In this document: positions 2,953 through 61,718 of the stretch, in pieces
Layout: every line of letters begins with the position of its first letter
Position numbering within the stretch: position 1 is the first letter of the stretch
Origin: Streptomyces griseochromogenes
Lineage (GTDB): Bacteria; Actinomycetota; Actinomycetes; Streptomycetales; Streptomycetaceae
Length of the DNA stretch: 64,000 nt
Direction of reading: 5' to 3'
NCBI RefSeq assembly: GCF_001542625.1
Contig: NZ_CP016279.1
Coordinates: 8,122,001 to 8,186,000, forward strand
The notes under the pieces: model-generated
The model's database searches: none
Seen by the model: only the letters and a program-made list of their open reading frames with translations
What the model was told of the DNA's origin: nothing
Translations under genes and position numbers: made by a program

Positions 2953-3635
2953 GGCAGGCCGACCAGCCGGGCCCGGATCGCCAGGTCGGCCTCGCCCTGG
3001 GCGCGCAGCCGGTCCGAGGCGTGCCGGGCGAGCCAGGACCGCAGTTCGGCGACGCCTACGGCCTCGTCGTCCCGGATCCACCAGGTGAACGGCCAGGAGT
3101 CGTCGATCAGGTCGTAGAGCCATGAGCCCGCGCAGCCGACGAGATGGGTGTCGGCGACCGGATGCGGCTCCCACCGGTCGAGCAGTGGGGTCATCGTGCG
3201 CAGGATCGAGGCGCAGGTCTCGAACACGTCCTCCACCGGAAAGGGCGGGTCGGGGGTGGTGAGCACGTCGCACCACCAGGCGAGCACGAACGCCTCGACG
3301 GCCGATGCCTGCTCGGTGGGCCAGGCACGCCAGTCCACCCGGCTCAGTCCGTGACGGCCGTTGAAGCGGATGCCGTCCATGCTGCCGTCGGCCAAGGCGT
3401 GGGCGCACTGCGGCAGCAGGCGTCGCATCACGGCGGCGTGGTCCTCGAAGTGGTCGGGGACCTTGTAGACGAAGCGGCGCAGCAGACCGGTCGGGAGCCT
3501 GGTGTACGGAGTCCGCAGAAGGGCCGTCTCCTCCGGTGCGAAGCAGCGCTCGCAGCCGGTCTCGGCGGGGCTGGCGAACCCGTTGAAGACGGTGTCGATG
3601 TCCGCGAGGGCGGCGGCAAGGGCGGGTGTGGGCAT
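2898..3635 (-). CDS. Conserved hypothetical protein (aromatic-rich, no known domain recognised)
   Basis: The product has 245 residues if it starts at ATG 3635 (MPTPALAAALADID). A longer N-terminal extension upstream has no good ribosome site and is arginine-rich, so I prefer the internal start. The sequence is soluble, acidic and rich in Trp and Asp (LAWWCDVLTTPDPPFPVEDV, WLYDLIDDSWPFTWWIRDDE), with a CERC pair near residue 30. Its 3' end overlaps the BKACE gene by 55 bp in convergent orientation. I recognise no family with an assigned function. Confidence 0.7.
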   Translation of the reverse strand: MPTPALAAALADIDTVFNGFASPAETGCERCFAPEETALLRTPYTRLPTGLLRRFVYKVPDHFEDHAAVMRRLLPQCAHALADGSMDGIRFNGRHGLSRVDWRAWPTEQASAVEAFVLAWWCDVLTTPDPPFPVEDVFETCASILRTMTPLLDRWEPHPVADTHLVGCAGSWLYDLIDDSWPFTWWIRDDEAVGVAELRSWLARHASDRLRAQGEADLAIRARLVGLPYEDRWNDPYWTRPSATN

Positions 3636-3786
3636 GGGAGTTCGGCCCCGTTCGGTACTCCGTGCCGGGCGTCGCCGCCGGCCGAAGAGCATGACGCTAG
3701 CAGGCCCTAATCCGGTCGCTCCACCCCTTTCCCATGCGGACAGTGGGTGCCGATGAAACCGAACTGAGGAACCGAGGAGTCCCCAG

Positions 3787-4854
3787 ATGTCGACGCTGCG
3801 CGTCACCGCCGAAGTGCTGACCGTCCACGAGCATCCGAACGCCGACGCGCTCGAACTGGCCCAGGTGGGCCTGTACCGAGCCGTCGTCGCCAAGGGCGCC
3901 TACCGCACCGGCGACGCCGCCCTCTACATCCCCGAACAGTCCGTGCTCCCGTCCGGGCTGATCGAGGAGCTGGGCCTGACCGGGCGGCTGGCGGGCGGCG
4001 AGTCCAACCGGGTCAGGGCGGTCCGGCTGCGGGGCGAGCTGTCGCAGGGCATCGTGTGCCGGCCCACTGCGCTCGCGGACGTCGATCTGGCGCGGGCCGC
4101 CGCCGAGGGCACCGACTTCGCCGAGCGGCTGGGCATCACCAAGTGGGTGCCGCCGATCCCGCCGACCATGAGCGGAGAGGTGGAGTCCGCTCCCGGCCTG
4201 CTGCCATGGGTCGACATCGAGAACATCCAGCGCTACCCGGACATCTTCGCCCCGGGCGAGCCGGTCGTCCTCACCGAGAAGCTGCACGGCTCGGCGTGTC
4301 TGCTGACGTATGTCGCCGACGAGGACCGGGTGTACGTGTCCTCCAAGGGCTTCGGGGCGAAGTCCCTGGCCCTGAAGGAGGACCCGCGCAACCTCTACTG
4401 GCGGGCGATACGAGGACACGGCGTCGCCGAGACGGCGGCGCGGCTCTGCGAGCGGCTGGGCGCCGCGCGGGTCGGCATCTTCGGGGAGGTGTACGGCGCC
4501 GGGGTGCAGGACCTCACGTACGGGGCCGACGGGCGGCGGGAGACGCTCGGGTACACGGCGTTCGACGTGTCGGCGGAGATCGACGGGGCGCTGTGCTGGC
4601 TGGACTCCGCCGAGTTGCTCGAGGGTGAGTTGCCCGTGGTGCCACGGCTGTACTCGGGGCCGTACGACATCGAGCGGGTGCTGGAGTTCGCGAGCGGGCG
4701 GGAGACGGTGTCCGGGCGGGAGCTGCATCTGCGGGAGGGCGTGGTGATACGGCCTGCCGTGGAGCGGTACAGCGCGGTGACCGGGGGGCGGGCGATCGCC
4801 AAGGCGGTGAGTCCCGCGTATCTGACGCGCAAGGGCGGCACCGAGTACGAGTAG
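3787..4854 (+). CDS. RNA ligase (ATP), Rnl5/DraRnl-like
   Basis: This 355-residue enzyme belongs to the covalent nucleotidyltransferase superfamily. The N-terminal ~120 residues form the OB-like module characteristic of Deinococcus DraRnl (VLTVHEHPNADALELAQVG). Adenylyltransferase motifs follow in order: motif I EKLHGS with the AMP-accepting Lys, motif III IFGEVYG, motif IV EGVVIRP, and motif V KAVSPAYLTRKGG. The family seals 3'-OH RNA ends at nicks. The ATG at 3787 follows GAGGAGTCCCCAG. The gene stands alone between divergent and convergent neighbours, with no phosphatase/kinase, RtcB or toxin partner beside it, so its RNA substrate cannot be inferred. Confidence 0.88.
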   Translation: MSTLRVTAEVLTVHEHPNADALELAQVGLYRAVVAKGAYRTGDAALYIPEQSVLPSGLIEELGLTGRLAGGESNRVRAVRLRGELSQGIVCRPTALADVDLARAAAEGTDFAERLGITKWVPPIPPTMSGEVESAPGLLPWVDIENIQRYPDIFAPGEPVVLTEKLHGSACLLTYVADEDRVYVSSKGFGAKSLALKEDPRNLYWRAIRGHGVAETAARLCERLGAARVGIFGEVYGAGVQDLTYGADGRRETLGYTAFDVSAEIDGALCWLDSAELLEGELPVVPRLYSGPYDIERVLEFASGRETVSGRELHLREGVVIRPAVERYSAVTGGRAIAKAVSPAYLTRKGGTEYE

Positions 4855-4924
4855 GTCTCCGGTTGCCCGGTGCCGCGGCCGGGCGGGGGGTGGGGGGCGC
4901 CGGCGGGTTGCCGCCGAGCCGCCC

Positions 4925-5383
4925 CTACCGCCCCTCGGCCAGGAGGCGCGAGCCCACCCTCCGCTCGCCGAACACATCGTCCGGGTTGGACAGAACACAC
5001 GTGTCCAAGGACAGACACCCGCACCCGATGCAGTCCGTGAGGTGGTCCCGCAGTCGGTTCAGCTGCTTGATGCGCTCGTCGAGTTCGGAGCGCCAGGCCT
5101 CCGAAAGCCGGGCCCAGTCCTCATGGGTCGGGGTGCGTTCCTCGGGGAGCTGGGCCAGGGCCTCGCGGATCGTGGCGAGGGGGATGCCGACCCGCTGGGC
5201 CGCGCGCACGAAGGCGACCCGGCGCAGCGTGTCGCGGGTGTAGCGGCGCTGGTTTCCGGAGGTGCGGCGGCTGGTGATCAGGCCCTTGGACTCGTAGAAG
5301 TGCAGGGCGGAGACGGCGGCACCGCTGCGCGCGGACAACTGGCCGACGGTCAGCTCATGGATCTTCTCGGGAATCTGGGGCAC
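4925..5383 (-). CDS. soxR: Redox-sensing MerR-family regulator SoxR
   Basis: The 152-residue protein starts with a MerR winged helix ([24 protein letters not shown]) and continues through a dimerisation helix. It ends with the [2Fe-2S] cluster signature [12 protein letters not shown], the CxxCxCxxxxxC spacing specific to SoxR. In Streptomyces, SoxR responds to redox-active metabolites such as actinorhodin rather than running a superoxide stimulon, and controls a handful of enzyme and transporter genes. I found no clear SoxR box (CCTCAAGTTAACTTGAGG-like) elsewhere in this window, so its targets are probably remote. There is no soxS, as expected in actinobacteria. Confidence 0.95.
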
Positions 5384-5421
5384 CCCTCAGAGACTACCCA
5401 CACGCCTCGGAGGACGAATCG

Positions 5422-5464
5422 TTGACAGGCGCCCCTCACCCGACCATGCTAAGCAGTTGCTTAG
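5422..5464 (+). promoter_or_regulatory. Candidate promoter and TetR-type operator before the MaoC gene
   Basis: TTGACA at 5422-5427 is a consensus -35. The -10 at 17-nt spacing (CATGCT, 5445-5450) is weak. A perfect 7-bp-arm palindrome, CTAAGCAGTTGCTTAG (5449-5464), overlaps the -10/start region, a position suited to repression. The half-site GCTTAG is also found at 6635-6650 upstream of the nearby tetR. Confidence 0.55.
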
Positions 5465-5488
5465 ACCTACGAGCGAGAGGCCGGGAAC

Positions 5489-5950
5489 ATGGCAGAACCG
5501 AGGACCTTCACCTCCCCCGACGAGCTGAAGGCCGCCGTGGGCGAGCAACTGGGCCACACCGACTGGCTGGAGATCGACCAGAAGCGGATCGACCTGTTCG
5601 CGGAGGCCACCGGCGATCACCAGTGGATCCATGTGGACCCGGAGAAGGCCGCCGCGGGGCCGTTCAAGACCACCATCGCCCACGGCTATCTGACCCTCTC
5701 GCTGCTTCCGCTCTTCGGACCGCAGCTCATCAAGGTCGAGGGCGTGACGATGGGCGTCAACTACGGGACGAACAAGGTGCGTTTCCCCTCACCCGTCCCG
5801 GTGGGCTCCCGGCTGCGCGCCACCGCGACGATCACCGGTGTCGAGGACGTCAAGGGCGGCGTCCAGGTGAGCGTCGCCTTCACCGTGGAGCGCGAGGGCG
5901 GCGACAAGCCGGTCTGCGTCGCGGAGTCGGTGTCCCGCTACTACCTCTGA
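5489..5950 (+). CDS. MaoC-like (R)-specific enoyl-CoA hydratase
   Basis: This 153-residue hot-dog-fold protein carries the hydratase-2 signature: FAEATGDHQWIHVDPEKA followed by GPFKTTIAHGYLTLSLLP. The Asp/His pair in GDHQWIH is catalytic in the family, which hydrates trans-2-enoyl-CoA to (R)-3-hydroxyacyl-CoA. The single-domain length matches the small MaoC/NodN type. A consensus -35 and a palindrome lie just upstream. The adjacent TetR gene and the acyl-CoA dehydrogenase further on point to fatty-acid or branched acyl-CoA metabolism. Confidence 0.88.
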   Translation: MAEPRTFTSPDELKAAVGEQLGHTDWLEIDQKRIDLFAEATGDHQWIHVDPEKAAAGPFKTTIAHGYLTLSLLPLFGPQLIKVEGVTMGVNYGTNKVRFPSPVPVGSRLRATATITGVEDVKGGVQVSVAFTVEREGGDKPVCVAESVSRYYL

Positions 5951-5962
5951 GCGCGGCGCGCC

Positions 5963-6586
5963 CTACTTGGCGCCCACCATCCGCAGCACGAGGTCGGCGT
6001 AGAGCGCGCCGACCTCCTCGGGGGTGCGCGGCCCGTCCACGGTGAACCAGCGCGCCACGTCGATGCACAGCGACAGCACGGCGAGCGTGGTGCCGTGCAC
6101 GTCCAGCACGTCGAACTCGCCCGAGGCCACTCCGTCCTCGACGATCCCGCGCACCTCGGCGTCGACCTGGCGGCGCAGCGCGACGATCTCGGCCCGGGCC
6201 TCGGGCCCGAGCGCGTCGAGTTCGTACTGCACGACCCGCGCCGTGGTGCGCCGCCCGGCGTGCCAGCGGACGAAGGAGCTGACGGCGTCGGACAGCCGCT
6301 CCGCGGCGCTCCCCTCGCGCCCGGCCGCCGTCCGCAGGATGTCCAGGGCCCTGTCGTGGCCGATCCGGCTGATCCGGTGGAGCAGCTCTTCCTTGGTCTT
6401 GTAGTGGATGTAGAGAGCGGCCGGGCTCATGCCGGCGCGGCCCGCGATGTCGCGTGTCGTCGTCGCGTGGTAGCCGCGCTCGGCGAAGGCCTCCACGGCG
6501 GCGATGAGCAGCCGCCGGGCCGCGTCAGGGGTGACCTCTTCCCACGGCTCGACCTCGCCGCCGGCCGTCTCCTCCGCCGTACTCAT
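5963..6586 (-). CDS. TetR-family transcriptional regulator
   Basis: The 207-residue product starts at ATG 6586, preceded by GGAAGGGG; a GTG 24 nt upstream is possible but lacks a ribosome site. The DNA-binding domain is clear (AVEAFAERGYHATTTRDIAG, then GMSPAALYIHYKTKEELL). The C-terminal ligand domain is all-helical. It is convergent with the MaoC gene (12-bp gap). A palindrome with the same GCTTAG half-site lies upstream of each gene, so it is a reasonable candidate to repress both itself and the hydratase. The effector is unknown; acyl-CoA is plausible. Confidence 0.88.
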   Translation of the reverse strand: MSTAEETAGGEVEPWEEVTPDAARRLLIAAVEAFAERGYHATTTRDIAGRAGMSPAALYIHYKTKEELLHRISRIGHDRALDILRTAAGREGSAAERLSDAVSSFVRWHAGRRTTARVVQYELDALGPEARAEIVALRRQVDAEVRGIVEDGVASGEFDVLDVHGTTLAVLSLCIDVARWFTVDGPRTPEEVGALYADLVLRMVGAK

Positions 6587-52518: not shown

Positions 52519-53495
52519 CGTCCGGCCTCCTTCGGGACTGAGGGCCGCATGAGCATGAGGTGGCCTCTATGGCGCGTAGATGCGCACCAGCCGGCATTTG
52601 TTCGCCGGTCCACAGTCGGACTGCCAGGATCTCGCGTCTCGGGGTCGAACGAAAGTCCGGCGGACGCGAGTGCGGCCCGCTCAGGAATTCGACTTCGATC
52701 ACGCCTCACCTTGGTCGCACCGAGACGGCACCGGGCGGCGGTCGACAGGGGCTCCGCGACACACCTCCGACGCAGTGACCGTCCCCTGCCCTGCCCGCCC
52801 CCGCTCCGCCGCAGGTCAGTGGGGGCAGGAGCCGCCGGGAGCCGATCCGGGAACCAACCGAGGCGTCCGACCGCGGACGACCACGAACCGCCACGGACGG
52901 TAGCGCCGCTCGGACGCAGGTGGGCCAGGGGGGGGTCCACGTCTCTTCCTGAGCCCTCGGTTAGCCCCGCCTTAAGCCGACCGTGAGGACGCAAAGGGCT
53001 CCTGGAGGCAGCGTTCTCGCAGGTCAGAGGCAGGGCTGCTGGGACTCGTCCAGGCGTGGGGAGCCAAACAGGGAGCCACGGTCAGGAATCTGTTCCAACT
53101 TTCGCTTCATGGATCAAGGCGGCTCGCTCTGCTCACCGCGCGCGGCACGGCCCCCGTCCGGGCCTGCGCTCCTGGCTCCGCCCCGCTCCAGCCCGGCCGG
53201 CGCCCGTGCCGCGCGCACAGCAATCAGCCACCTGCCGTCAGAGAAGGGGTCCGTCGTGGCTGGGGCAGTCGGCTCCACGGCTTTACGGGGCCATGATCGC
53301 TCGCGCCAAAGCAGCGCCACCCCAAAGCCGTTCCACCGACCGCGTGCTCTCGTGCCCCCTCCAGATTTCCCGGCACACCCAACGCACTGGGGTGTGAAGG
53401 CCTACCCTGGGGCGCACGAACGTCCCGGGATGTCCTGGTAACAGGCGTGCGCGTGACGGGGGTTGGACATGGTCAGTGCGGAGATCGGGCAGTGA
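52519..53495. other. Non-coding region with left direct repeat
   Basis: I found no convincing gene in this ~1-kb stretch. The first 300 bp serve as the GH3 upstream region. The 163-bp direct repeat (52827-52989) follows. The rest (52990-53495) has no recognisable domain in any frame and may contain decayed mobile-element sequence. Confidence 0.5.
52827..52989 (+). repeat. ~163-bp direct repeat, left copy
   Basis: This copy begins AGGAGCCGCCGGGAGCCGAT and ends CCGACCGTGAGGA. It matches 60462-60623 in the same orientation, apart from about six substitutions and a one-base length change in a G-run (GGGGGGGGT versus GGGGGTTT). It contains short inverted repeats and the segment CCTCGGTTAGCCCCGCCTTAA. 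Confidence 0.92.
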
Positions 53496-53894
53496 GTGGA
53501 GCAGGCTAGCCCTGCCGTGACGGCCGCAGTGAGTGCCTACGGGGCGGCGGTGCTGACCCGGGCGCAGGACGCCGCCGCCGACGCCACGGTCGGTATCGGG
53601 CAGCGGATCCTCCAGGCGGTGTGGCGACGCCGGGACGAGGCGGGCCGGACCGAGCTAGAACGAGTGGTGGACGAGGCCACCGACGAACAGGACGACGCGT
53701 ACACCACGGCCGTAGTGAGCAGGCTACTCAAACGCGCGTTGCAGGACGACCCTGAGCTGAGGGAGGAACTGGCCGCGATGCTGCCCGTCCCTGCCGCAGG
53801 CACGGTCACCATCACTGCGTCCGGCGAGCGGTCAATCGCCGCACAGCACATCGGCACCGCGATCACTGGTGACGGTCACACCTCACAGCCATGA
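53496..53894 (+). CDS. Small helical protein paired with the NLR-like gene
   Basis: The 132-residue product starts at GTG 53496 (GTG 53492 is out of frame). It is acidic and predicted helical through residue ~95: AVSAYGAAVLTRAQDAAADA, RRRDEAGRTELERVVDEATD, RLLKRALQDDPELREELAAM. A beta-like tail GERSIAAQHIGTAITGD follows. The tail closely parallels GHRSIAAGQIGNAYTGD near the start of the next protein. Its stop overlaps that ATG by 4 nt. It is probably a partner or effector-adaptor of the STAND ATPase. I know no assigned function. Confidence 0.75.
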   Translation: MEQASPAVTAAVSAYGAAVLTRAQDAAADATVGIGQRILQAVWRRRDEAGRTELERVVDEATDEQDDAYTTAVVSRLLKRALQDDPELREELAAMLPVPAAGTVTITASGERSIAAQHIGTAITGDGHTSQP

Positions 53895-55803
53895 GCGCAG
53901 ACGATGCCGTTTCCAGGCGGATCAAGGCCGCCGGGCACCGATCGATCGCGGCCGGACAGATCGGCAACGCCTACACGGGGGACGTGCTGCCTGCCGAGGC
54001 GTTGCATGCACCGGAGAAGGTCACGGCGGCCCCAGGCACCTCAAACCTGCCCCCGGCCGCCCTCTGTCTGGGGCGTGAGGAAGAGCTGGCCTGGCTGCGC
54101 CACATCTTGACCGACCAGCGTGAGGGTGCGATCACCCAGAGTGGGACAGCGCACGGCTTGGGTGGGATCGGCAAAAGCACCCTCGCACTGCACTACGCCC
54201 ACCGCTACCGCGGCGAATACACCCTGATTTGGTGGATCAACGCTACCTCTCCGGACTCCATCGAGCAGTCCCTGACAGGAATCACCCGCCGGCTGGTCCC
54301 TGTCTGGGCGGCGACGTCAGCCCGCGAGGCACAGGTAGCGTGGGCTATGCAGTGGCTGAGCTGGCATAGGGGCTGGCTGCTGGTCTACGACAACGCTGAG
54401 GATCCCGCCGATCTGGAGCGCTACACCGGATCCCTCAACAGTGGGCACCACTTGGTTACTAGCCGCCGCAGCCGAGGGTGGCCGGACGGCGCTGCCACTC
54501 TGCTGCTCGGAACCCTGGACCCCGACGACGCCGTTAACGTGCTGTGCACCCTTGCTTTCAGGGACGCCACCCCCACTCTGCGTCAGAGAACTGATGCGCG
54601 CGCTCTAGCCGCTGATCTGGGATATCTGCCGCTTGCCCTAAAGCAGGCCGGCTCCTACCTCAACCGAAACCGCGGCATCACCCTCGACGCCTACCGCCGC
54701 AGTCTGGGCACCAAGCTGCACAAAGCCGACGATGGCATCTCCGCTGAGCGGACTATCGCCCGAATCTGGCACCTGACGCTGCACATATTGGCTTCGCGTG
54801 ACCCTTTGGCCGTGGATGTGCTCTACACCGCCGCGTGGCTCGCTCCCGACAACGTCCCTCATGCCCTGCTCGCCCCGCATGGCACCGACCCGGACGACCT
54901 TGCCGAGGCCATCGGCACGTTGGCCTCATACAGCATGGCCACCGACACTGGCACCACCCTGAGCATCCATCGCCTCGTCCAAACCGTTCTGCGCACCCCC
55001 CAAGACCTCAGTGATCACCGGCCCCATGAAGGGCGCGAGCGAGCTGAACAAGCCCTCGTCCGTCACCTGGCACCACCTCCCGGCCAGGAGACGACCACCG
55101 AAGGCCAATGGGATGCTCTTATTCCCCATCTGATCGCTCTCGCCGCCAATACCCCGCCTGGACACCACAGCGACCCTCTCATCGACGCATACGAGTGCGC
55201 TGCCTACCGCCTCCACCAGCAAGGCCACACCACCCCCACTATCCCGCTGTGGGAGGTAACTCTGTCCCATCGTGAACGGCTGCTGGGCGACACCCACCCC
55301 GACACCCTGACCAGCCGCCACCACCTCGCCTATGTCTACGGGGCGGCAGGGAATCTGCGGCGGGCCATCCCCCTGTACGAGGCCACCCTCGCCCAGCGCG
55401 AACAGGTGCTGGGCGACACCCACCCCGACACCCTGACCAGCCGCCACCACCTCGCCACCACCTACAGAGGTCAGCAGGCCGTCTGGACCAGGCGATCCCC
55501 CTGCTGGAGACCACCCTGGCTCAGCGCGAACAGGTGCTGGGCGACAGACACCCCGACACCCTGACCAGCCGCAACAACCTCGCCACCGCTTATGAGTCGG
55601 CGGGAAACCCAGAGCGGGCGGTCCCCCTACTCGAGACCAACCTCGCCCTCTGCGAGCAGGTCTTGGGCGACACGCATCCCCATGCCCTGGCCAGCCGCAA
55701 CAACCTCGCTCATGCACGCCGTGCCGCGGAGGCCGTACAGCAGAGGAGTACAGAAACCTCAACGACCGAAGCTGACCCTCAGCAGCCGTCCAGGACCGAT
55801 TGA
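53891..55803 (+). pseudogene. NB-ARC/TPR (STAND, NLR-like) ATPase gene, interrupted by a 2-nt frameshift
   Basis: The gene begins MSADDAVSRRIKAAGHRSIA. The NB-ARC module has Walker A GLGGIGKSTLALHYAHRY (~residue 95), Walker B GWLLVYDNAED, sensor LVTSRRSRGWP and YLPLALKQAGSYL (GLPL-like). A winged-helix region (VLYTAAWLAPDNVPHALLAP) follows. The C terminus is a set of 42-residue TPRs (LGDTHPDTLTSRHHLA). The frame closes at 55564, while the TPR series continues in the -1 frame to the stop at 55803. Removing 2 nt near 55465-55471 would restore a ~636-residue protein. It may be inactive, truncated, or a sequencing artefact. Such ATPases act in signalling or antiphage sensing. Confidence 0.8.
55283..55740 (+). 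repeat. 126-nt TPR-encoding tandem repeat array
   Basis: The marker CTGGGCGA(CA) recurs at 55283, 55409, 55537 and (as TTGGGCGA) 55663. Spacings are 126, 128 and 126 nt. Units 1 and 2 are identical over CTGGGCGACACCCACCCCGA and beyond. The 128-nt unit contains the frameshift. Confidence 0.88.
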
Positions 55804-55865
55804 CCAGCCGATCAGGCCCAGATGACCATCCGGCCGAGAGTTCAGGACGATGAGGTCGTGCCAGA
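55729..55865 (+). repeat. NLR 3' tail and downstream flank, copy A
   Basis: These are the last 24 codons of the NLR gene (EAVQQRSTETS... to stop) and the following flank with AGTTCAGGACGATGAGGTCG at 55839. A diverged copy lies at 56863-56999. Confidence 0.6.
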
Positions 55866-56113
55866 CGCGTGCCAGATCGTACGGGGACTCACGGGGAACA
55901 TCGGAGAATCAACGGACTCGCCACCAGGCATCGAACCCTTTCCGTCGCAGGTCAGCCCACAGCGAGCCTTAGATCACCTTAGCTTCCCAAGCTGAGGTGA
56001 TAGCGCTGGTGGACATCGTTCACGGGCGCACTCTGGCCAGTGGTCAGGCAGGCGCGGGCCGAGCTCGGGGAGATGGTTCGCCCTGGTCCACAGTGCACAT
56101 GAAAACAAACCGG
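55804..56113. other. Intergenic region inside the island
   Basis: This 310-bp stretch holds the NLR downstream flank (similar to 56938-57000) and otherwise nothing recognisable. Base composition is less G+C-rich than core genes. Confidence 0.5.
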
Positions 56114-56707
56114 TCAGCGAGCAGTCCGCCGCAAGGCAACGCGCCAGGGTCCGCCCGGCCGCGGAGGCGTCCGCAAAACAAGTTTCGAAGCCTCCGTGAA
56201 CTGCCTCCGCGCCTGATGCGCCAGAGTCATCAACGCAGGCCACGAGTGCCAGTCGCGCTCGAATGGCTCATCCGGGTTTGTCTGATGGTTGAGATACCCG
56301 GACGCAGCATCAAAGGCGTTGTCCATCGCAATGACCGCCGCGTCCACCGATGCTGGGCCCAGGATGGCAGCACGATCCAGCGGCTTCGACAAGCCCCGCC
56401 GGGCGTCTACGAGGTCTTCCTCTACGGTTATCGCCATCTCATAAGGTTCACCGCCCTGACTATCCAGCCACTCCTCTCGCTCCGGCCAAAGGTCCACTGT
56501 GCGTTCGAGTTTGCTGACGGCGGTGTCCCAAGCGTCGAGAAGAGCGACGTAGGCCTCTTGCCGCTGACCGCGCAGCCATTGCTCGTGCTCGACTGCAGCT
56601 TGGTCCGTGGTCTGGCGACGGTTGCCATGGACGCCGGTGTAGGCGACGACGACGGTGCCGGCCACACCGAGGGCTGCGGTGAGAATGACGGGCCACTGAT
56701 CGCTCAT
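56114..56707 (-). CDS. Membrane-anchored protein of unknown function (island)
   Basis: The 197-residue protein starts at ATG 56707 (MSDQWPVILTAALG). One N-terminal helix (VILTAALGVAGTVVVAYTGV) is followed by a cytoplasmic basic stretch (HGNRRQTTDQ) and a long helical domain rich in Trp and Glu (EEWLDSQGGEPYEMAITVEE, AMDNAFDAASGYLNHQTNPD). Similar single-helix helical-bundle proteins are frequent in streptomycete accessory regions. No function is assigned. It is convergent with the NLR gene and flanked on both sides by NLR-tail repeats. Confidence 0.65.
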   Translation of the reverse strand: MSDQWPVILTAALGVAGTVVVAYTGVHGNRRQTTDQAAVEHEQWLRGQRQEAYVALLDAWDTAVSKLERTVDLWPEREEWLDSQGGEPYEMAITVEEDLVDARRGLSKPLDRAAILGPASVDAAVIAMDNAFDAASGYLNHQTNPDEPFERDWHSWPALMTLAHQARRQFTEASKLVLRTPPRPGGPWRVALRRTAR

Positions 56708-56734
56708 GGCGGTCGTCCTGCCGTAGAGGGGCAT

Positions 56735-57039
56735 ACACGAAGATGGTCACTCATGCCTTCGTTGGTGCACGGGAAACAGCGCTCCGCAACGCCCTTGTCG
56801 AGGTCGCAGGCCGTGGCCGACGGCACGGAGCCCCTTTGACAGCGGCAAGCGGCTTCCGTACCGCTGCTGTACAGCAGCCGAGTACAGCAACCACCGCAAC
56901 CGCAGGCAACCGTCAACGAATCCCGACGGCCGACTGACCTTGGCCTCAGACTTCAATGACTGACCAACCAATAGTTCGGGACGAAGTGGTCGTGCCCAGA
57001 TCGTGCAGGAGAGCGGGCGCCAGACCGAGTGTCGGATCC
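56735..57039. other. Intergenic region with an NLR-tail remnant
   Basis: This 305-bp region holds the upstream sequence of the membrane protein gene and the second NLR 3' tail (56863-56999). No intact gene is seen. Confidence 0.5.
56863..56999 (+). repeat. NLR 3' tail and downstream flank, copy B (remnant)
   Basis: A frame ending at the stop at 56937 reads AAVQQPSTATTATAGNRQRI and PTAD, the same 24-residue length as the NLR C terminus, with ~10 identities. AGTTCGGGACGAAGTGGTCG lies 36 nt after the stop, exactly as in copy A. No TPR or ATPase sequence precedes it, so it is a leftover 3' end. Confidence 0.55.
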
Positions 57040-57798
57040 TCAACTGTCGGTCAAGTCTTCATTAGATCCCGCTGACCTCAGGAGTCGCAAGCAATCTCGC
57101 CCAAAATTGGTGAGAATCCACATTTCCCGAAATCCGTCGTCCGCAACGAGGCGATTGATTCCGTCATCCACAGCCAGGCCCTCAGAAGTGAGGCGGGCAA
57201 TTGAAGCATCGAGCACATCGGCGTAACCGGGGATCTCGGCCAAGATCTCTGGGCGGCGCCACCCAGGCCAGCGTACGTTCTTGTCAGGGCCAAGTTCATG
57301 GGGTGGCATAAGGGGAGGCTGACGCTCTAGCAACTCCATCAACTTAACTTCCGGCTCATCGATTCGGGCTAGTCCTCGAATCCGCAGTCTCTCTTCGTCG
57401 ACTTTCGCCTCATCACGCACGCCACGGCCAAGGCAGCGTCCTAGAGCCTGCACTTTGATATCCAGGGGCGTATCCATGGCTGCTTGGACACTCTCTGCCA
57501 TGAGAGCAAGGAGACGAGGGCTGGACTCAATAGATGAGACGAACCTGTTGAGGTCCATGCCCGCTTCATCGCCACCCACGGATAGCACTCGACTCGCTCG
57601 GGCTCGTCGGTACTGCAGGTACTTTTCGATCAGGCGCTGTCCAGCGGCGTCGACTACTTCCTTCGCCGCCAGAGCCGCAGCACCCGCCTCCAGGCCGAGC
57701 GTTGCACCGGTGACGCCAGCCCCCACGCTCGTGGTTGCTCTGAGGACCACCTCTGCCGCGTTGCCGACGCTCTCCTCGGGTATGCGATCATCCGTCAC
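57040..57798 (-). CDS. Unknown island protein with helical core and winged-helix-like C terminus
   Basis: The 252-residue protein starts MTDDRIPEESVGN. Residues ~20-50 are Ala/Gly-rich and hydrophobic (TTSVGAGVTGATLGLEAGAA) and could be a membrane hairpin. The middle is helical (ESSPRLLALMAESVQAAMDT, IKVQALGRCLGRGVRDEAKV, then RIRGLARIDEPEVKLMELLE). The end (VLDASIARLTSEGLAVDDGI, REMWILTNFGRDCLRLL) resembles a winged helix. The overall plan recalls actinobacterial Abi-like proteins but no family is secure. Lower G+C than the surrounding core genes suggests horizontal origin. Confidence 0.65.
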   Translation of the reverse strand: MTDDRIPEESVGNAAEVVLRATTSVGAGVTGATLGLEAGAAALAAKEVVDAAGQRLIEKYLQYRRARASRVLSVGGDEAGMDLNRFVSSIESSPRLLALMAESVQAAMDTPLDIKVQALGRCLGRGVRDEAKVDEERLRIRGLARIDEPEVKLMELLERQPPLMPPHELGPDKNVRWPGWRRPEILAEIPGYADVLDASIARLTSEGLAVDDGINRLVADDGFREMWILTNFGRDCLRLLRSAGSNEDLTDS

Positions 57799-57992
57799 GG
57801 CGAGCAGGTTACTGTAACGGCCGCCACCTCAAGATGGCTTCAATAGAGCTCGCGCTTCAGCGGGCACAAAGTGCGCGCCCCTACCTGACATCCAGCCCTG
57901 ACATCAACGACAACAGACAACAGCAACTACGAGCGGCCACGGACGACCTTGGCTCCCAGGCGCCAGAGCCTCATGAGGCCACGTGGACCGAA

Positions 57993-59736: not shown

Positions 59737-60731
59737 ATGCCCCTTATGGACTATTTACGCGAAGTGGACGTAAGCAAGGACGCTCACGGTAAACCGTCTC
59801 GACACGCTCGCAACCTCAGACGAGGCGCCTGACGCCGCAGCTCCGCACCTCCCGCGTCGGCCGCGCCCGGACGAAACCCGTCCGCGCACCAGCGAACCGG
59901 GGCAGCGCCTTGAGGCGCGCGGAGGTCTGACGGACGACCCGGAGACCTTTCAGGTCCCGCCCCTTAGACCACGGACCATGACGGTTCTCTGGCCGGCCTC
60001 GGTGCAGGGCAGCCTGGCGAGGGCCACTGACATCCATCGCTGACACCAACGGGCCCGGACATCGGCGGATCTCGACGGCCGAGTGCAGAGGCACCACAGA
60101 GCCACGCCACGGCACCATGGGGGCCGTGATCGAACTCCTAGAGCGGTGATCCGTCCGTAGGTGATGCCGCCCGAAACCCACTGAAGCATTCCGTGCAGCC
60201 GCAGCGCAGTCGTGCGGCCACAGCCCTGTCCCGAGTGTCCGGGCTGTAACATCCGCGGCACAGCCAGCCTCACAACCCATCAAAGCACGGACCGCGTTGT
60301 TCCCTGCTCGCCCAGCAGAGGCCGACCCATGCGTGAGTGGCGCGTGAGATTAGTGGGCGGAACCACGCCCCACCGTGTTTCAGCAGCTCCGGGGCGCCCT
60401 GGAAGCGCGATCTTGCTTGGCCTCCGGAGCCATGTGCACAGGTTGGTGAGGCGAGACGCATAGGAGCCGCCGGGAGCCGATCCGGGAACCAACCGAGGCG
60501 TCCGACCGCGGACGACCACGAACCGCCACGGACGGTAGCGCTGCTCGGACGCAGGTGGGCCAGGGGGTTTCCACGTCTCTTCCTGAGCCCTCGGTTAGCC
60601 CCGCCTTAAATCGACCATAAGGATCTCCGTCACCCACTCCCAGCAGGCAATTCCACGATTTCTTGGGGCTAGCTTCTGATCGCCCCCACGGGATTCAGAC
60701 CAGCCCCGAGGACCGTTTCGAGGAGTTCCCC
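59726..60731. other. Non-coding ~1 kb with right direct repeat
   Basis: Promoter sequence of the FAD oxidase occupies the left edge. Frames at 59816-60283 and elsewhere are open, but their composition is not coding-like and no domain is recognisable. The right 163-bp repeat (60462-60623) is followed by the ~108-bp upstream region of the monooxygenase gene. Confidence 0.5.
60462..60623 (+). repeat. ~163-bp direct repeat, right copy
   Basis: Same orientation as 52827-52989. It begins AGGAGCCGCCGGGAGCCGAT and ends TCGACCATAAGGA. It ends 108 bp before the monooxygenase start. Confidence 0.92.
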
Positions 60732-61718
60732 ATGTCCGTACGCCGCACGGCCGCCGTCGTCGTCCTCGGCGCGACGCCGCTCGCCCTGACCGCGCTCGCC
60801 GCCGCTCCCGCCGCCGCGCACGGCTCGATGGGCGACCCGGTCAGCAGGGTGTCGCAGTGCTACGCGGAGGGACCGGAGAGCCCCGAGTCGGCCGCGTGCA
60901 AGGCCGCGGTCGCGGCCGGCGGGACGCAGGCGTTCTACGACTGGAACGGCGTCCGGATCGGCGACGCCGCCGGACAGCACCAGAAGCTGATCCCGGACGG
61001 CAAGCTGTGCAGCGCGAACAACGAGGAGTTCAAGGGGCTCGACCTGGCCCGCGCGGACTGGCCCGCGACGAGCGTGAAGAGCGGCTCGTACACCTTCAAG
61101 TACCGCGTGACCGCTGCGCACAAGGGCACCTTCAAGGTCTACGTCACCAAGTCCGGCTACGCCCCGACGAAGCCGCTGGCCTGGGCGGACCTGGATCTGG
61201 AGCACCCGGTGGCGACGGCCACCGACCCGGTCGCCTCGGGCGGCTTCTACACGTTCTCCGGCACGCTGCCCGAGCGGTCCGGCAGGCAGCTGCTGTATGC
61301 GGTCTGGCAGCGTTCGGACAGCCCGGAGGCGTTCTACTCCTGCTCGGACGTCGCGTTCGGCGCCGGCGGCGGCACGGGAGGCGGCAGCGGCACGGGGGAC
61401 GGAGCCACGGCCGCCCCGACGGCCTCCGCGCCCTCCGACAAGCAGATCGAGGACGGTGCCGACAAGTCGACCATCGAGCACCACGGCCACGGCGACGACG
61501 ACGCGAGCACGTCCGCCGAACCGACGGCGACGGCGGCGGCCGGCACCCCGGCCAACGGGCCGAAGGCCGCCGGCACCTCCGGGAACCTCGCCGAGACCGG
61601 CGGTGACAGCAGCACGTCGTACCTCGCGGTCGGCGGTGCGGCGGCGCTCGCGCTCGGTTCGGCGGCGCTGTTCATGTCGGTGCGCCGACGGGCGGCGGGC
61701 GGCCGGCACGGGCGCTGA
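60732..61718 (+). CDS. AA10 lytic polysaccharide monooxygenase with LAETG wall-anchor signal
   Basis: The 328-residue enzyme has a signal peptide cleaved at AAA-HGSMGDPVSRVSQCY, leaving the N-terminal His of the copper brace. The second His is in VTAAHKGTFKVYVTK. The catalytic domain (to ~residue 210) contains AFYDWNGVRIGDAAGQHQKL, typical of AA10 chitin/cellulose oxidases. A Gly/Ser/Thr-rich linker follows, then LAETGGDSS, a membrane helix (LAVGGAAALALGSAALFM) and an RRRAAGGRHGR tail: a class E sortase signal. It would be wall-linked rather than freely secreted. ATG 60732 follows GAGGAGTTCCCC. Confidence 0.93.
   Translation: MSVRRTAAVVVLGATPLALTALAAAPAAAHGSMGDPVSRVSQCYAEGPESPESAACKAAVAAGGTQAFYDWNGVRIGDAAGQHQKLIPDGKLCSANNEEFKGLDLARADWPATSVKSGSYTFKYRVTAAHKGTFKVYVTKSGYAPTKPLAWADLDLEHPVATATDPVASGGFYTFSGTLPERSGRQLLYAVWQRSDSPEAFYSCSDVAFGAGGGTGGGSGTGDGATAAPTASAPSDKQIEDGADKSTIEHHGHGDDDASTSAEPTATAAAGTPANGPKAAGTSGNLAETGGDSSTSYLAVGGAAALALGSAALFMSVRRRAAGGRHGR

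Follow-up and report, generated by a model that had tools for sequence, protein, structure and literature searches.

Analysis of a 64,000-nucleotide stretch of the Streptomyces griseochromogenes genome (hereafter the window) revealed two overlapping genes, coding for a small effector-like protein and for an NLR-like STAND ATPase, which carry the same short motif at the C-terminus of the first product and at the N-terminus of the second. This pair probably forms a Bell/BASS-type signalling unit of two genes, an NLR and its effector. Systems of this kind had been predicted before; with the relatives gathered here, the motif emerges as a real feature that is matched between partners at the level of subtypes. 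Genes of one effector family stand before receptors of NB-ARC/TPR, NB-ARC/WD40 and NACHT type and, to judge from weak matches, of nSTAND type.

Organisation of the gene pair in the window

The window comes from a single-contig genome of 10.76 Mb, and the features of the pair all lie on its forward strand. The small ORF (53496..53894, 132 amino acids) and the NLR-like ORF, which opens at ATG 53891, overlap by the stop/start sequence ATGA (53891..53894), as described in the original prediction. The NLR-like ORF (53891..55564) codes for 557 amino acids, comprising an NB-ARC domain with the P-loop GLGGIGKS (54155..54178) and the start of a TPR array. A Pfam search gave NB-ARC slightly below the cut-off (E 4.6e-5, 23.3 bits against 23.5) and TPR_12 at E 1.1e-14, with an additional match to TPR_10; for the small protein, the scan of Pfam/family models yielded no family above cut-off.

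Both genes of the window copy are interrupted, a point that the original prediction had overlooked. The 132 residues attributed to the small gene do form an ORF, but not the whole gene: the GTG start of this ORF directly follows an in-frame TGA (53493..53495), which closes a family reading frame beginning at ATG 53469 (53469..53495). In close relatives (e.g. L035-L037, L074-L082, L104, L107-L109) this stretch is open and the frame begins 8-9 codons upstream. The stop was independently detected by a profile search, whose match from window position 53475 contains one TGA. The NLR gene, for its part, had been drawn to 55803, whereas its ORF closes at 55564; the frame is lost within the TPR array (55266..55709, 3.5 copies of a 126-bp unit as found by TRF) after the second unit, and the remaining TPR units run on in another reading frame (55534..55803). 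Of the 30 TPR receptors screened, L074, L104, L112, L117 (a sequence with Ns) and L118 likewise have TPR-like units past their ORF end, single distant matches in L048 and L109 being left out of this count. By three-taxon counts, the share of non-synonymous changes is not elevated on the branch leading to the window copy, and the interruptions are therefore taken to be recent, tolerated or sequence errors. The window copy is probably damaged or only partly working; re-initiation of the effector at TGA-GTG would be possible.

The 126-bp units of the TPR receptors are also alike as DNA, with a mean identity of 0.81 (up to 1.0) within a protein against 0.76 between proteins (50 units from 10 receptors). 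Their variability is concentrated at positions 7, 10, 13, 17, 20, 26 and 39 of the unit (window 55266-55709 and relatives), and they are perhaps concerted, diversifying sensor repeats.

A motif shared by effector tail and receptor head

The effector tail had been said to be mirrored at the head of the NLR with 12 of 17 residues identical, and this likeness is confirmed. Alignment of GERSIAAQHIGTAITGD (effector residues 110-126, 53823..53873) with GHRSIAAGQIGNAYTGD (NLR residues 15-31, 53933..53983) gives the 12 identities and a Smith-Waterman score of 63, a score that was never reached in 20,000 double shuffles of two end segments, the C-terminal 40 amino acids of the small protein and the N-terminal 50 of the NLR. 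When the whole small protein was shuffled and compared with the whole NLR, 4 of 2,000 shuffles reached 63, so that much of the significance of the motif is carried by its position. When the NLR motif region was searched against the whole 10.76-Mb genome, the tail of the neighbouring gene came first after the region itself (E 0.17, alone not significant), the region being covered also by weaker matches at E 0.9 and above. The motif is thus no obvious common segment of its own genome.

The same genome codes for a second, distant effector-like protein (L161, G000:C1:7609000-7619000; E 1.4e-5) with the tail NAQVFNGKVEVQGD. In positions 3584-6573 of this locus it precedes an 810-amino acid protein, to which Pfam attributes only a weak HEAT match and which carries NADVSFGGGFH in its N-terminal part. 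L161 is possibly another shared-motif system.

Distribution of the effector family and its partners

The small protein was found in 27 of 199 genomes (E <= 1e-3), and a search of 392 genomes from the genus (E <= 1e-5) found it in 61, its own genome included in both counts. In a sample of 396 genomes from across the phylum, the family profile matched seven (E <= 1e-5), six of them from the same genus, again with its own included. The 36 other places of the 199-genome search, 49 further places of the genus search, nine named loci and the window make up 95 loci, or 93 once two duplicates were removed; two fragments of one interrupted copy from the genus search were left out. Eight of the named loci are from Streptomyces and one from Kitasatospora, the effector of Streptomyces populi NZ_KZ626849.1 being identical to that of G299, a genome of the same genus as the window. 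All nine have the pair and the motif, and eight have the 4-base overlap.

A large adjacent downstream ORF, defined as at least 400 amino acids long and -45 to +120 bases away, is present at 73 of the 93 distinct effector-like loci. The 4-base overlap recurs in 53 of these 73 pairs and a P-loop pattern in 60 of the 73 downstream ORFs, so the small gene, far from occurring mostly without an NB-ARC partner, usually has a large neighbour, mostly of STAND type. The tail/head motif is detected at shuffle p <= 0.01 in 64/73 pairs. In two further pairs (L036, p 0.017; L131, p 0.015) the motif is visible by eye, and L047, L053, L057a and L057b have an adjacent P-loop partner with no detectable motif.

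The Pfam scan of receptors covered nine partners. It attributed NB-ARC/TPR to the partner of L124, NB-ARC/WD40 to that of L051 and NACHT to that of L135. Thirteen of the 73 partners lack the P-loop pattern: L037 (NPHP3_N above and NACHT below cut-off), L129 (nSTAND5 with TPR), L136 and L143 (nSTAND6), the three nSTAND matches all lying below cut-off, L150 (TPR only), L060 (TrkA) and, outside the scan, L062, L119 and five others; the first five of these are possible STAND proteins, and the downstream ORF of L119 is probably spurious. The L060 protein matches TrkA_N/TrkA_C and follows its effector-like gene without a shared motif. The motif-bearing receptor of L129 (2378-6169) is also above cut-off for NCBIfam NF033532, a type VII secretion system-associated protein.

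The 20 loci without an adjacent large partner comprise five fusions and 15 loci with no large adjacent ORF. L039 (NZ_CP108443.1, WP_331738530.1) and L045 are effector-TPR fusions with no NB-ARC match, in which the helical effector domain is joined to long TPR arrays with a truncated motif, the junctions differing between the two species; they are possible ATPase-free sensor-effector fusions. In L063 the effector-like domain is fused directly to NB-ARC (E 1.8e-6), with no TGD-type motif visible by eye between the two domains, and L052 and L133 combine the effector with membrane-like segments, also judged by eye. Among the remaining loci, L148 and L152 are effector fragments, and receptor remnants are seen in L113 and L152. 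L110 (1.6 kb from a contig end), L113 and L114, together with L119, resemble full-length effectors minus the receptor. These four, all of the same genus, stand as full-length genes without a large downstream receptor gene, so that lethality of the effector by itself is not evident.

Matching of motifs between partners

Motif scores are higher between cognate partners than between non-cognate ones. In 33 non-redundant pairs taken without motif selection the cognate mean is 59.6 against 37.3, and in the 22 pairs of P-loop or NACHT type, also without motif selection, it is 57.6 against 36.2, with 0 of 100,000 permutations reaching the observed value in either set; in 28 motif-selected pairs the values are 66.9 and 42.4. 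The cognate receptor is the row maximum in only 7/33 and 8/28 pairs. By columns, counted from an anchor glycine that is invariant by construction and misplaced in a few cases, cognate identity in 62 distinct motif-selected pairs exceeds the permuted expectation at -9 to -1, +3 and +5, with no excess at +1, +2 and +4.

Because related pairs inherit both motifs, partners were also swapped between nearest relatives. Over all 73 pairs the cognate partner was better in 22 cases and the swapped one in 8, with 6 ties (sign p 0.008); without seven motif-less loci the figures are 19 and 8, with 6 ties (sign p 0.026). The signal is confined to relatives below 0.70 identity (14 vs 3 for all 73, 12 vs 3 with the motif-less loci dropped) and is absent between close relatives at 0.70 identity or more (8 vs 5 and 7 vs 5, respectively). 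In four genomes carrying two systems of different subtypes, the cognate sums exceed the crossed sums (106 v 79, 103 v 86, 158 v 139 and 122 v 80), six of the eight effectors scoring best with their own receptor, one being tied and L147 preferring the other receptor. In two genomes with systems of the same subtype, the crossed sums are slightly above the cognate ones (135 v 140 and 149 v 150, cognate first). The motif thus behaves like an address at the level of subtypes and not like a key unique to each pair.

Motifs with a TGD core presumably belong to a common actinobacterial BASS family. Concordant departures are found in both partners of the same pair in L048 (HTGD), L051 (QQGD), L082 (NGD), L137 and L142 (SLGD), and the two partners are discordant in L040, L049, L058 and L064. 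These departures bear on the idea that the likeness is a functionless neutral leftover, such as a linker that was duplicated or a fused gene that later split. Co-inheritance does account for part of the matching, close relatives having no cognate advantage. However, the motif has been kept in 64 of the 73 pairs though effector domains fall below 60 % identity and the class of receptor changes, and the concordant departures were made by both partners, the four discordant pairs notwithstanding; a neutral leftover is thus highly improbable.

Predicted structure of the effector

AF2 modelled the window ORF from 31 sequences at a pLDDT of 74.1, with helices at residues 4-45, 48-63, 67-84 and 86-95 followed by a disordered tail. 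The uninterrupted relative L104 was modelled from 64 sequences at a pLDDT of 74.8, with five helices and disorder from about residue 108. The effector is predicted from these models to be a small alpha-helical bundle (residues 1-96 of the small ORF, 53496..53783) with a disordered tail, and no PDB relative was found by fold or sequence. In 68 of 73 effectors, the most hydrophobic 19-residue stretch begins at residue 25 or earlier; the Kyte-Doolittle value of this stretch is 1.01 in the window effector, and one of the 73 reaches the transmembrane-like value of 1.6.

Gene neighbourhood and the FxsT annotation

Five neighbours of the pair in the window were scanned with Pfam and PADLOC, and proved to be a GH3 protein, a GNAT protein, a FAD/BBE oxidase and two proteins without family. 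No defence family, the presence of which the original prediction had proposed to check, was found among them, and PADLOC attributed no family at E <= 1 to the effector, the window NLR or the NLR of an intact relative. Downstream of the pair, positions 55804-57800 have a G+C content of 0.62 against 0.71 for the whole window and hold two reverse-strand ORFs without family (56114-56734 and 57040-57798). Further on, ARAGORN called a tRNA-Ser (gga) at 61169-61248 inside the ORF 60663-61718, which may be a false call.

The NLR could also be read as the FxsT of an FxSxx-COOH peptide maturation system, an actinobacterial NB-ARC/TPR protein, in which case the small gene would be an accessory unrelated to assembly signalling. 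The NLR of L035, an intact relative, does pass the 300-bit cut-off of the FxsT model NF040586 with 416.2 bits, the window ORF, shortened by the frameshift, reaches 246.6 bits, and in L163 (NZ_CP107900.1) RefSeq names the NLR partner fxsT and the effector a hypothetical protein. On the other hand, none of the five scanned neighbours is a radical-SAM protein, a peptidase or an FxSxx precursor, a gene sharing the motif lies directly upstream, and the same effector family pairs with receptors that are far below the cut-off (77 bits for the WD40 type) or without any match to the model (NACHT and nSTAND5 types). The FxsT reading is therefore improbable. NF040586 may reach beyond true FxSxx-COOH systems; it names a type of receptor and leaves the effector unexplained.

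Proposed mechanism and comparison with known systems

As a Bell/BASS-like unit, the pair would work as follows. The TPR array would sense a ligand, the NB-ARC ATPase would oligomerise and thereby cluster the N-terminal motifs, and these would act as a template for the matching motif at the effector's C-terminus, drawing it into one common assembly that is rich in beta structure, probably a cross-beta amyloid. The helical domains, clustered in turn, would be switched on, most likely as a membrane-acting effector of cell death or growth arrest. The docking or co-assembly element that the original prediction had suggested is supported by the recurrence of the motif in adjacent pairs and by its matching at subtype level. 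Its kind is already known from published descriptions of amyloid signalling in bacteria, which give this layout. For the same layout a role has also been proposed, that of Bell effectors with BASS amyloid motifs, a point missed in the original prediction, which knew of no assigned role for the small helical family.

In published reports, bacterial Bell effectors and NLRs have a common C-/N-terminal motif (BASS1-10) for which amyloid templating is proposed (PMC7889193, PMC8086366, PMC12261475, PMC9815663, PMC7885112). BASS3 is reported there to form fibrils, and a Streptomyces atratus BASS3 fused to GFP gave foci when expressed in Podospora. Two conserved Gln of BASS3 are described as proline-sensitive (PMC9815663); in our columns, which are not aligned to BASS3 itself, Gln stands at -8 in 19/62 effector and 8/62 receptor motifs. 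The motif might instead dock the partners specifically without forming amyloid, for example through a short beta-strand that pairs or stacks in a finite complex, and so bring the small protein into the NLR oligomer as a subunit in fixed stoichiometry. Its recurrent glycines and partner-matched residues would suit any homotypic beta pairing, yet an effector tail and a receptor head in multicellular bacteria are the very setting in which BASS3 gave its fibrils and foci, and we regard finite docking as rather unlikely.

Beyond the Bell/BASS reading of the pair itself, the motif may tentatively be seen as an evolving address code. The effector family would have been rewired to TPR, WD40, NACHT and nSTAND receptors, matched subtypes would insulate co-resident systems, the TPR units, alike as DNA and differing at a few hypervariable positions, would provide a fast-changing sensor, and some lineages would bypass the ATPase by effector-TPR fusion. 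The dozens of uninterrupted matched pairs, together with natural receptor swaps, fusions and receptor losses, are promising material to test templated-assembly signalling in bacteria, as in animals and fungi.

Amyloid signalosomes of multicellular bacteria, with BASS motifs and Bell-domain NLRs, were reportedly treated by Dyrka et al. in J Mol Biol in 2020. Among other systems, the STAND/AP-ATPase conflict systems likewise occur in multicellular prokaryotes and involve ATPases whose superstructure repeats are TPRs, but the VMAP and FtsH components of their ternary systems were not seen among the scanned neighbours in the window (PMC7159879).

The NLR amyloid signalosomes of fungi, such as those of HET-S and HELLP, join a receptor head and an effector tail by a motif. 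They resemble the pair in that this short motif is common to both partners and in their clustered genes (PMC7889193). They differ in their taxa, and no solved structure was found to be related to the window effector in sequence or fold.

The closest likeness is to the bacterial Bell/BASS systems; a review of 2021 calls the outcome of bacterial NLR/effector motif signalling unexplored (PMC7889193). The pair differs from them in that the hydrophobic transmembrane helix of Bell is weak here and that the window copy is interrupted in both genes. It shares with them adjacent or overlapping genes, a motif at the C-terminus of the effector and at the N-terminus of the NLR, a small helical effector, a repeat-bearing STAND ATPase of NLR type as the partner, and occurrence in filamentous actinobacteria.
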